A model generated the notes under the pieces. It ran no database searches. It was given only the letters and a program-made list of their open reading frames with translations, and had not been told where the DNA came from. DNA of 64,000 nucleotides from Comamonas kerstersii (GTDB taxonomy: Bacteria; Pseudomonadota; Gammaproteobacteria; Burkholderiales; Burkholderiaceae_C): assembly GCF_008801935.1 (NCBI RefSeq), contig NZ_VZOT01000003.1:186001-250000 (forward strand). Direction: 5' to 3'. This document shows, piece by piece, positions 7,606 to 10,340 of the stretch; positions within the stretch are counted from its first letter, which is position 1; each line of letters begins with the position of its first letter. A program made the translations under genes and the position numbers.

Positions 7606-7716
7606 CTGCTTGCAGCAATCACTGCTTTGCTCAAAAATCCTCTGCATGCTGCATTGCAACATGAATTTGAAAGATGCAGCTGCTCACCTGTCCCCCATTC
7701 AACGGAGTACACGACC

Positions 7717-8274
7717 ATGGCACTGACACCTGAACAAATTGCTGCTGCACACAAGGCAAATCTCGAAACCCTGTTTGGCCTGACCAACAAGGCTTTTGAA
7801 GGCGTGGAGAAGATTGTGGAACTGAACATGGCTGCTACACGTGCAGCGTTGTCTGAAGCTGCCAGCCACAGCCAGGCTCTGTTGAATGCCAAGGACATTC
7901 AGGAGCTGGTCACTCTGCAAACCAGCCTGTTCCAGCCTCTGGCTGAAAAAACGGCGGCTTACAACCGTCACCTGTACAACATCGCTACCAGCACTTCTGC
8001 CGAAGTCAGCAAGGCGCTGGAAAGCAAGGCCAGCGAATTTCAGCAGAGCTTCAACAATCTGGTGGACTCCACTGCAAAGAACGCTCCAGCCGGCTCGGAA
8101 ACCGCTGTAGCCATGATGAAGAGCGCAGTCTCTGCTGCCAACAATGCTTTTGAAAGCGTACAAAAAGCGGTAAAGCAAGCTTCTGACCTGGTGGACGCTA
8201 ACCTGAAGGCCGTCGCCGCAACAGCAACCACCACAGCAGCACCTGCAGCCTCTTCCAGCAAGGCCAAAGCCTGA
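7717..8274 (+). CDS. phaP: Phasin (polyhydroxyalkanoate granule surface protein)
   Basis: Small amphipathic protein coating polyhydroxyalkanoate granules. 185 residues from ATG 7717, which has CGGAG nine bases upstream; the longer frame back to 7573 has no signal. The [20 protein letters not shown] start, the [20 protein letters not shown] core and an Ala/Thr/Lys-rich low-complexity tail fit the Phasin_2 family. Mostly helical with no membrane segment. No PHA synthase is in the window. A strong promoter, a candidate small RNA and a terminator follow immediately downstream. Confidence 0.92.
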
Positions 8275-8298
8275 TATTTCCTGATGCTTCGATAACCA

Positions 8299-8328
8299 TT
8301 GGACAACTTCTAGGGTTTACCCTATAAT
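8299..8328 (+). promoter_or_regulatory. Strong sigma-70 promoter with internal palindrome, candidate sRNA promoter
   Basis: -35 TTGGAC (8299-8304) and perfect -10 TATAAT (8323-8328), 18-bp spacer. The spacer contains the palindrome TAGGGTTTACCCTA (8311-8324), which runs into the -10 and looks like a repressor site. The whole promoter is enclosed by a ten-base inverted repeat, TGATGCTTCG at 8282-8291 and CGAAGCATCA at 8330-8339. Confidence 0.7.
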
Positions 8329-8334
8329 TCGAAG

Positions 8335-8436
8335 CATCAACCAGTTCACTGGTTACCAGTTGTCTCCTTGGATCCTCTTGAAACCCCCGTTTCTTGGATC
8401 CCTTTAAACCCGGTTTTCACAAACCGGGTTTTTTTT
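8335..8436 (+). ncRNA. Candidate small RNA of about 100 nt
   Basis: Starts about seven bases after the TATAAT box and ends in a strong intrinsic terminator. Predicted parts: a 5' hairpin (AACCAG/CTGGTT, 8339-8354), an unpaired pyrimidine-rich stretch 8355-8405 containing TCTCCTTGGAT (8363-8373, complementary to Shine-Dalgarno sequence) and a second TTGGATCC, then the terminator stem. No open reading frame of note lies inside. This layout is typical of base-pairing regulatory RNAs. I do not recognise a named family. A long leader of the downstream dehydrogenase gene is unlikely because the terminator intervenes. Confidence 0.6.
8406..8436 (+). terminator. Strong intrinsic terminator of the candidate sRNA
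   Basis: Perfect 11-bp stem AAACCCGGTTT/AAACCGGGTTT, four-base loop, with a run of eight T at 8429-8436. Confidence 0.9.
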
Positions 8437-8487
8437 CGTCCCTACATAGCTGCACTGACTGGTCTTTACTTGGCCGCCCTTTCATAA

Positions 8488-8503
8488 TTGACGTTTACGT
8501 CAA
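8488..8503. promoter_or_regulatory. LiuR-like operator before the dehydrogenase gene
   Basis: TTGACGTTTACGTCAA is a seven-base inverted repeat around TT. It resembles the ACGT-containing palindromes bound by LiuR, the MerR-family regulator of branched-chain amino acid and acyl-CoA degradation in proteobacteria. It ends 23 bases before the start of a gene of that type. The family assignment is from memory of the motif. Confidence 0.55.
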
Positions 8504-8526
8504 AGAGAATCCAAGGAGCATAAAGC

Positions 8527-9285
8527 ATGGAAATACAGGGCAAGGTATTTATCGTCACCGGTGGTGCATCAGGCCTGGGAGAAGGCACAGCACGCATGCT
8601 GGCAGCCCATGGTGCCAAGGTCATCATTGCAGACATGCAGCAGGAAAAAGGCCTGGCCGTAGCCAATACCATTGGCGGCATATTCGTGCCATGTGATGTC
8701 AGCAGTGAGGCCGATGGCCAGGCTGTCGTCCAGCAAGCGACTCGTGCAGGCATGCTTGCAGGCCTGGTCAATTGCGCCGGCATTGCGCCCGCTGAAAAAA
8801 CCGTAGGCAAAAGCGGGGCTCACAGCCTGGCGCTGTATCAGAAAGTGATTCAGGTCAACCTGATCGGCAGCTTCAATATGATTCGCCTGGCAGCCGAGGC
8901 GATGAGCAAGAACACGCCTGAATCCACTGGTGAACGCGGCGTCATCATCTCCACAGCCAGCATTGCGGCTTATGACGGACAAATAGGCCAGGCAGCCTAT
9001 GCGGCTTCCAAAGGAGGTGTGGTAGGTATGACATTGCCGATCGCGCGTGATCTTGCACGCAACGGCATTCGCAACATGACGATCGCCCCCGGCATATTTG
9101 GGACACCCATGCTATTTGGCATGCCGCAGGAAGTACAGGATGCGCTGGCTGCAGGTGTTCCCTTCCCCAGCCGCCTGGGTACGCCCGAAGACTATGCCAA
9201 GCTGGTCAAGCACATCATTGAAAATGACATGCTCAACGGCGAAGTGATTCGCCTCGACGGTGCCATTCGCCTGGCCCCCAAATAA
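8527..9285 (+). CDS. Short-chain dehydrogenase, 3-hydroxyacyl-CoA dehydrogenase type II-like
   Basis: NAD-dependent oxidoreductase of 252 residues. The Rossmann motif TGGASGLG is at 11-18, NCAG in the middle of the fold, and the catalytic Tyr158-X3-Lys162 in YAASK. The closest family by sequence is human HSD17B10-like 3-hydroxy-2-methylbutyryl-CoA dehydrogenase (AERNGI-type tail, [14 protein letters not shown]), which acts in isoleucine and acyl-CoA oxidation. The AAGGAG site lies before the ATG. The LiuR-like operator upstream fits branched-chain catabolism. Monocistronic, with a terminator directly after it. Confidence 0.85.
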
Positions 9286-9390: not shown

Positions 9391-9467
9391 TGGCGGAGTG
9401 GACGGGACTCGAACCCGCGACCCCCGGCGTGACAGGCCGGTATTCTAACCAACTGAACTACCACTCC
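9391..9467 (-). tRNA. tRNA-Asp (GTC), copy 1
   Basis: 77 nt including the encoded CCA. The anticodon loop CTGTCAC gives GTC. Last gene of the leftward array. Confidence 0.97.
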
Positions 9468-9514
9468 TGGCAGGAAGCATTGCTAGCTTTTCTCAAGCAC
9501 AAGCGCTTCAAACT

Positions 9515-9590
9515 TGGCGACCCTACGGGGATTCGAACCCCGGTACCCACCGTGAAAGGGTGGTGTCCTAGGCCTCTAGACGATAGGGTC
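9515..9590 (-). tRNA. tRNA-Glu (TTC), copy 1
   Basis: 76 nt including CCA. The anticodon loop CTTTCAC gives TTC. The 40-bp spacer to tRNA-Ala (9591-9630) is identical to the spacer at 10225-10264. Confidence 0.97.
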
Positions 9591-9630
9591 AATCCTAGAA
9601 CTTTCAGCATTACTGCTGACCGTTAAATTC

Positions 9631-9706
<76 letters not shown>

Positions 9707-9710
9707 AAAC

Positions 9711-9787
9711 TGGCGGAGTGGACGGGACTCGAACCCGCGACCCCCGGCGTGACAGGCCGGTATTCTAACCAACTGAACTACCACTCC
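9711..9787 (-). tRNA. tRNA-Asp (GTC), copy 2
   Basis: Same sequence as copy 1. Only four bases separate it from the following tRNA-Ala. Confidence 0.97.
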
Positions 9788-9848
9788 TGGCAGAAAACTT
9801 TGTGCTTCGTTGCTATTATTTTAGCAGCAAAACCAAGCGCTTCAAACT

Positions 9849-9924
9849 TGGCGACCCTACGGGGATTCGAACCCCGGTACCCACCGTGAAAGGGTGGTGT
9901 CCTAGGCCTCTAGACGATAGGGTC
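9849..9924 (-). tRNA. tRNA-Glu (TTC), copy 2
   Basis: Same sequence as copy 1. No tRNA-Ala lies just before it, unlike the other two units. Confidence 0.97.
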
Positions 9925-10014
9925 ATAACCTAGAATCTTTGCTTTCGCACCGATTAAAAAAGCGCCCTTTACTTTCAAGGTGCTTATTTAATCGAACCGA
10001 CTAAACAAACTAAC

Positions 10015-10091
10015 TGGCGGAGTGGACGGGACTCGAACCCGCGACCCCCGGCGTGACAGGCCGGTATTCTAACCAACTGAACTACCACTCC
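10015..10091 (-). tRNA. tRNA-Asp (GTC), copy 3
   Basis: Same sequence as the other tRNA-Asp copies in this array. Confidence 0.97.
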
Positions 10092-10148
10092 GAGGAAAAA
10101 AGCAATTTATTTTTGCATTTTTTGCAAAAACCAAGTTGCTTTTTAACT

Positions 10149-10224
10149 TGGCGACCCTACGGGGATTCGAACCCCGGTACCCACCGTGAAAGGGTGGTGT
10201 CCTAGGCCTCTAGACGATAGGGTC
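10149..10224 (-). tRNA. tRNA-Glu (TTC), copy 3
   Basis: Same sequence as the other tRNA-Glu copies in this array. Confidence 0.97.
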
Positions 10225-10264
10225 AATCCTAGAACTTTCAGCATTACTGCTGACCGTTAAATTC

Positions 10265-10340
<76 letters not shown>

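Follow-up and report, generated by a model that had tools for sequence, protein, structure and literature searches.

The DNA behind the phasin gene of Comamonas kerstersii raises the question of whether it encodes a small regulatory RNA and, if so, whether that RNA comes from a gene of its own or from the 3' end of the phasin mRNA. A preliminary description of this DNA had proposed an Hfq-type sRNA of no known family, with a near-consensus promoter, a short 5' hairpin, an unpaired pyrimidine-rich middle and an intrinsic terminator, lying upstream of an acyl-CoA dehydrogenase gene. Here we examined the locus within its window, the whole stretch of 64,000 nucleotides that was analysed, and in related genomes. 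The features are collected in Table 1.

Table 1. Features of the phasin-sRNA-SDR locus (positions in the window)
Feature	Position	Strand	Evidence
Phasin gene (PHB granule protein), sRNA at its 3' end	7717..8274	+	PF09361 Phasin_2 98.6 bits; TIGR01841 76.6 bits
Inverted-repeat left arm TGATGCTTCGA, sRNA promoter between the arms	8282..8292	+	3'UTR fold, covariation
Sigma-70 promoter of the sRNA, TGGACA-17-TATAAT (-35 TGGACA 8300-8305, spacing 17 nt, -10 TATAAT 8323-8328)	8300..8328	+	11/12 consensus bases
Palindrome TAGGGTTTACCCTA in the promoter spacer, candidate operator	8311..8324	.	AGGGnnnnCCC-type element in relatives
Inverted-repeat right arm TCGAAGCATCA, overlaps predicted start site	8329..8339	+	3'UTR fold, covariation
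sRNA transcript, predicted, ~102 nt, ends by prediction	8335..8436	+	Promoter/terminator positions, fold, conservation
5' hairpin, sequence variable, structure kept	8339..8354	+	Fold; genus loci
Exposed seed CAGUUGUCUCCUU, RBS-complementary	8357..8369	+	Genus invariance; unpaired in folds
Second hairpin: outer stem GGAUCC/GGAUCC, inner stem GAAAC/GUUUC	8370..8401	+	Fold; covariation
Intrinsic terminator, 11-bp stem 8406-8431 + T run	8406..8436	+	Terminator scan; covariation
RBS AUCCAAGGAG of the SDR gene; exact 10-nt complement of sRNA CUCCUUGGAU	8509..8518	+	Sequence
Short-chain dehydrogenase (SDR), predicted local target	8527..9285	+	PF00106 141 bits; PF13561

The promoter with its TATAAT, the short 5' hairpin and the 11-bp terminator with its T run were all recovered as previously described. 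The middle is free in its first part (8355-8369), but 8370-8401 form a second hairpin, which covaries in relatives and which the preliminary description had missed, together with the fixed linkage to the phasin 3' end. Over the 103 bases 8335-8437, the predicted structure has three stem-loops at -34.4 kcal/mol (z -5.9), a value reached in 0 of 200 shuffles; 8355-8369 with CAGUUGUCUCCUU, a short spacer, and the end and loop bases stay unpaired. The downstream gene proved to encode a short-chain dehydrogenase and not an acyl-CoA dehydrogenase. The earlier statement that no reading frame is present needs a small correction, as a mechanical 100-aa frame with a TTG start runs from 8394 to 8696, but it overlaps the SDR gene out of frame and is unsupported. 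When the + strand was scanned from the phasin stop to the sRNA terminator, no second terminator-like site was found, and the terminator at 8406-8436 is probably common to the phasin mRNA and the sRNA. Beyond the SDR gene, a repeated tRNA cluster occupies 9391-10340 on the minus strand, in + strand order Asp-Glu-Ala, Asp-Glu, Asp-Glu-Ala.

A DNA search returned the element from 50 of 53 Comamonas genomes, our own included, and from all 46 of the good ones. The block GUUGUCUCCUUGGAUCCU was invariant in the 30 genus loci, all fetched from that search, and so was GUUGUCUCCUU in the seed (30/30). Although its sequence is not conserved, the 5' hairpin folded in 30/30 genus leaders and was equalled by 0-12 of 200 shuffles. 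Promoter, 5' hairpin and terminator are thus kept across the genus, a point on which the preliminary description had staked its candidate. Beyond the genus, a scan of one genome per species for an exact 17-mer gave 111 stretches. Among 80 titled stretches, those named to genus belonged to Comamonas, Acidovorax, Delftia, Simplicispira, Giesbergeria, Vandammella, Lampropedia and other Comamonadaceae; the only exceptions among those so named were the MAG of L051, L099 and L116, chance matches, and a few further stretches carried a higher-rank name only. These three (a Clostridia MAG, Paenibacillus piri and a Methylococcus MAG, respectively), like L157 and L160, hold chance 17-mers, lack the remainder of the RNA, and were set aside. 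Of 299 family genomes, 241 had matches at E 0.01 to R1, a covariance model built on the core, canonical copies of the Rfam family RF02278 among these matches, and the remaining 58 had none under strict filters; about 130 genomes had matches of at least 50 bits, as counted by eye among the 150 matches listed. Outside the family, a second model (R2) matched 11 genomes of the order at E 1e-6, and 10 of these 11 matches were 64-70 nt long and canonical-looking where printed. For the exception, G404 (L214/L258), a phasin gene lies upstream at a distance of 199, and a terminator stands between the two. A looser search with R1 gave further matches there, weaker and longer ones.

We then looked at base-pair changes. 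Counted within the genus, the second hairpin hardly varies and is uninformative there. Family-wide, 43 sequences showed changes on both sides at 15 of 19 pairs, including 7 of 11 in the second hairpin and all 8 modelled pairs of the terminator. The covariation score was 0.405 compared with 0.116 after shuffling (0/500), and structures slid along the alignment gave at most 0.106; the alignment of the 43 sequences was fitted to the covariance model and so leans towards the model structure. The arms of hairpin 1 of the core occur as GGAUCC/GGAUCC, GGUACC/GGUACC and GGGUCC/GGACCC. Independent folds of family loci recovered hairpin 1 and the terminator in 42/42 and a free seed in 41/42, the exception being L108; these loci had been chosen for containing TTGTCTCCT, so that the identity of their seeds says nothing by itself. 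Judged from the sequences, the candidate is a real conserved element, and its layout as an Hfq-type regulator, as first proposed, is well supported by conservation, covariation, the 5' hairpin in every genus leader and the hfq gene found in the genome.

The element keeps one neighbour. Among the 111 exact-match stretches, 103 lie directly behind a phasin gene (75/80 in L051-L130 and 28/31 in L131-L161); the other eight comprise three at locus edges (L090, L104, L132) and the five chance 17-mers. A same-strand phasin gene was upstream in 34/34 family loci picked across the score range, 33 of which pass a stricter T-run rule, and a phasin frame was upstream in 29/29 other fetched genus loci. With the stop codon counted in, the distance between the last sense codon of the phasin gene and the start of TTGTCTCC ranged from 14 to 172 with a median of 96 (G404, from another family and at 199, excluded). 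Canonical RF02278 copies behave differently: within 1.5 kb of 40 such copies, taken from 82 family genomes with a copy above the cut-off, no phasin gene was found. The DNA surrounding the canonical copies L031, L210-L212, L215 and L260-L268 contained no nearby phasin gene, and beside L213 the gene is 1.85 kb away. What is new here is the location, directly at the 3' end of the phasin gene. One 3.8-kb contig (L063) carries two near-identical sRNA cores, one behind a phasin gene and the other where the contig ends, which may reflect tandem duplication or an assembly artefact.

The distance to the phasin gene separates two kinds of locus. One scan, applied to the 150 nt before the core at all 102 distinct loci, gave a promoter-like site in 67 of the 84 loci with a distance of at least 67, and in 0 of the 18 with a distance of up to 66 (a gap of at most 65 nt); in a control of 109 stretches inside phasin genes, none had such a site. 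An element of the AGGGnnnnCCC type abuts the -10 box in 51/84 long-gap loci, and 16/84 have neither promoter-like site nor operator element. In the closest cases (Paracidovorax L093 and L094; L109, L194, L209), 13-19 nt lie between the start of the stop codon and that of the core, which is most simply part of the phasin mRNA 3' end. Since the 18 short-gap loci have no promoter-like site, the RNA is there probably cut from the phasin mRNA, and we consider such release the probable source of the sRNA in short-gap lineages. A terminator-like site between phasin gene and core was seen in only 7 of the 102 distinct gaps.

In Comamonas-type gaps, the inverted repeat (8282-8292 and 8329-8339) encloses the promoter. 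The right arm spans the predicted sRNA start site, so the stem could form only in RNA coming from upstream. Matched arms paired at a mean of -11.3 kcal/mol, compared with -7.7 (sd 0.44) when arms were exchanged between species (0/10000 permutations; 36 representatives of 87 loci). The signal comes from part of the set: in 19/36 at most 3 of 35 foreign arms were as good, and 13/36 beat 95% of shuffles. The phasin 3'UTR of our locus was equalled in folding by 1 of 200 shuffles, and 62 of 77 such 3'UTRs were more stable than 95% of their shuffles, a result to which the promoter palindrome contributes. We read the covarying repeat and the folded 3'UTRs as signs of a phasin mRNA running into the sRNA and sharing its terminator. 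Some Acidovorax-type long-gap loci, such as L060, L067 and L117, have a different strong hairpin (GCGGTCTGGAG...CTCTAGGCCGC) in the phasin 3'UTR before the promoter, with no T run.

These observations bear on two other explanations. An independent sRNA gene that merely stays beside the phasin gene, mRNA and sRNA being uncoupled, would account for the strong promoter and palindrome in Comamonas and for a 5' leader hairpin that begins a few bases past the predicted start site. We regard it as unlikely, because the 18 loci at distances up to 66 have no promoter-like site, 95 of 102 loci have no terminator-like site between phasin and core, and the repeat across the start site covaries, though it would be of no use to an RNA with its 5' end at 8335. 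The reverse proposal, that the element is only the terminator of the phasin mRNA with a stabilising 3' structure and does not act in trans, agrees with the probably shared terminator, the position and the structured 3'UTRs in 62/77. It appears distinctly improbable, since a single-stranded anti-Shine-Dalgarno stretch inside the genus-invariant block (30/30) is not expected of a mere terminator, and since 67/84 long-gap loci have a promoter-like site of their own.

The promoter palindrome TAGGGTTTACCCTA may be the operator of some regulator. The genome holds only one other exact copy (L043, around 1501), upstream of a gene for a PQQ-dependent dehydrogenase, and five matches to the reversed pattern at up to one mismatch, from which no regulon is deduced. 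Copies of TAGGGTTTACCCTA with one mismatch also lie near CoA-transferase-like and LysR-like genes, named by eye.

The seed, where it is unpaired, presents an anti-Shine-Dalgarno sequence. The 12-mer AAGGAGACAACT, at up to one mismatch, had 14 matches in the genome, two of them the sRNA genes themselves. Eight of the 12 non-self matches lie directly before start codons; a ninth RBS-like match, L224, reads into an apparent tRNA gene and was dropped as probably spurious, which reduced the count from 9/12. The genes with seed-complementary RBSs encode three TctC receptors, an AMP-binding acyl-CoA synthetase, an aldehyde dehydrogenase, a class-III aminotransferase, a 55-aa protein and a 500-aa open frame that runs to the end of the DNA examined, has no Pfam match and was taken for an indolepyruvate oxidoreductase. 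For comparison, RBS-like positions made up 1/9 and 2/5 of the matches to control 12-mers, of which there were two only. Across a sample of 417 ORFs, in which some ORFs and starts are surely wrong, no excess of strong seed-RBS pairing over flank-permuted seeds was found (at -16, 27 versus 20.3, sd 8.9; at -20, 0 versus 1.9), and specificity beyond the anti-Shine-Dalgarno sequence is therefore not supported genome-wide. Altogether, target specificity is weakly supported.

The neighbouring SDR gene fares somewhat better. Its RBS forms a duplex with the seed at -18.0, rank 9 of the 417 ORFs, and 15 non-redundant SDR RBSs gave a mean of -15.5 versus -11.5 (sd 1.5) for permuted seeds, 3 of 400 being as low; the pairing energies were known before this permutation test. 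Leaving out the three representatives that had prompted the idea, the result was 20/1000, or 44/1000 with a longer fixed core. The SDR gene as a local target in Comamonas is thus modestly supported by predicted pairing. The phasin mRNA was also considered as a target and rejected, as its duplexes were no better than those of permuted seeds (68/400). That the seed would block RBSs is probable mainly by analogy with S17 of Bordetella and NcS27 of Burkholderia.

A terminator upstream of the SDR gene and the 10-nt complement to its RBS would also suit a cis-acting leader, an attenuator or riboswitch of that dehydrogenase. We rejected this idea and find it scarcely credible, because many relatives keep the core without a downstream SDR gene being found, or with one over 1 kb away. 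Moreover, the SDR gene is preceded by its own conserved palindrome, TTGACGTTTACGTCAA at 8488-8503, which recurs at the same place in many relatives and which we take to resemble a LiuR/MerR-type operator.

Taken together, the locus is probably best explained by a phasin-coupled, trans-acting double-hairpin sRNA of Hfq type, which would repress uptake and catabolic genes through its anti-Shine-Dalgarno seed and be supplied by its own promoter, by the mRNA route, or by both. It would work like S17 and NcS27 and form a branch of that class joined to the end of the phasin gene. Comamonas and most other lineages would supply the RNA both from its own promoter and as the processed 3' end of the phasin mRNA, and processed phasin mRNA would be the only route in lineages without the promoter. 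The 5' hairpin, or cleavage by RNase E, would leave CAGUUGUCUCCUU exposed. Held by Hfq, the seed would pair with the RBSs of uptake receptors, of acyl-CoA and other catabolic enzymes and, in Comamonas, of the adjacent SDR gene, and the pairing would block translation of those mRNAs. As a consequence, the cell would take up and break down less while it makes phasin and stores carbon. Conservation, structure, synteny, the presence or absence of promoter-like sites and the covarying read-through repeat support this reading, in which transcription, Hfq binding, processing, target repression and the physiological effect are inferred. On this comparative evidence, the sRNA gene is real and conserved, and probably a phasin-coupled form of a known kind of regulator.

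We see even chances for a wider proposal, in which the phasin 3'UTR sRNA of the Comamonadaceae is a family-wide, storage-coupled riboregulator: each burst of phasin would silence uptake and catabolic mRNAs, and lineages would alternate between dual supply, from a regulated promoter and read-through, and supply from the mRNA only. If true, PHB storage would be tied to post-transcriptional control of carbon uptake in an environmental bacterial family. In a review, the riboregulation of PHA synthesis is described as a forgotten mechanism (PMC8401924).

How does this RNA compare with known ones? At gathering thresholds, Rfam returned tRNAs only over the whole window, so that the earlier statement of no known family holds by that rule, but it overlooked a match to RF02278 (Betaproteobacteria_toxic_sRNA) at 34.9 bits and E 1.8e-5, below the gathering cut-off of 50. 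RF02278, which includes ncS03, ncS05, ncS27 and ncS62 of Burkholderia cenocepacia, has the same free UGUCUCC before a hairpin, followed by spacer and terminator, and our RNA follows this plan. The B. cenocepacia double-hairpin RNAs carry a CU-rich sequence complementary to RBSs, according to the accessible part of their description (PMC5688073). The intermediate L208/G123, a short RF02278-like form behind a phasin gene and the highest-scoring phasin-linked copy known (44.5 bits), makes descent from RF02278 likely. Shared UGUCUCC, shared plan, E-value and this intermediate could suggest that our RNA is a plain member or orthologue of the family (S17/NcS27). We hold that to be very improbable: none of the 18 phasin-linked loci among 20 scored reaches the cut-off, our own genome has a separate copy of 61.2 bits between the OsmC and threonine dehydratase genes, and copies above the cut-off, present in 82 of 120 family genomes, were near phasin in 0 of 40 examined. 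Compared with RF02278, hairpin 1 of our sRNA is longer, with an inner stem and arms of the GGAUCC type; the RNA is linked to phasin, carries an extra 5' hairpin in the genus and occurs in a genome that also has a canonical copy. That copy (L031) shares only CAGTTGTCTCCT with it and then differs; the canonical copies compared here differ from our RNA after UUGUCUCCU.

S17 of Bordetella pertussis has the same short form, exposed seed and classes of RBS target, as far as its report is accessible (PMC11722255). S17 is described there as Hfq-dependent and RNase E-processed, and it represses, or is predicted to repress, via their RBSs, transporter and solute-binding proteins, a fatty-acid ligase and catabolic or dehydrogenase genes (PMC11722255). 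It differs in lying beside coq7 and in being cut from a 190-nt RNA (PMC11722255). S17 has a 27-nt block, 100% conserved and including Sites 1 and 2. L031 and our RNA have only CAGTTGTCTCCT in common. The accessible portion of that report does not contain the terms Comamonas, Acidovorax, Delftia, Variovorax, Comamonadaceae, phasin or polyhydroxy (PMC11722255), and we found no report of this RNA in the open-access literature, searched for Comamonadaceae sRNAs, phasin-linked sRNAs and the related RNAs.

The anti-hemB RNA (RF02837) is likewise a CU-rich sRNA with a terminator; our RNA scores 21.3 bits against its cut-off of 49.5, and the genome has a separate homologue of 59.8 bits (L033; G000:C19, about 7624-7695, minus strand). 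A glycine riboswitch of 62.6 bits was also recorded (L034, 1346-1443, minus strand; G000:C8). MmgR of Sinorhizobium links an sRNA to phasins and PHB and lowers phasin levels, according to the part of the review available (PMC8401924). It belongs to the suhB family (RF00519), against which our RNA scores 19.6 bits with a cut-off of 41; here, in contrast, the sRNA is encoded behind the phasin gene, and the phasin RBS is no preferred partner. A parallel in supply is offered by enterobacteria, in which 3'UTR-derived Hfq sRNAs lie at mRNA 3' ends and have the terminator in common with the mRNA. In our case the terminator is probably shared, judged by sequence, no terminator-like site being seen in 95/102 gaps, nor in that of the window. 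The difference lies in the alternation of two modes, own promoter and mRNA only, between lineages of one RNA. An RNA with its own promoter in some lineages, and seemingly only an mRNA 3' end in others, makes the origin of 3'UTR sRNAs testable, and if our reading is true, these lineages form a natural series in which 3'UTR sRNAs and stand-alone sRNA genes interconvert.
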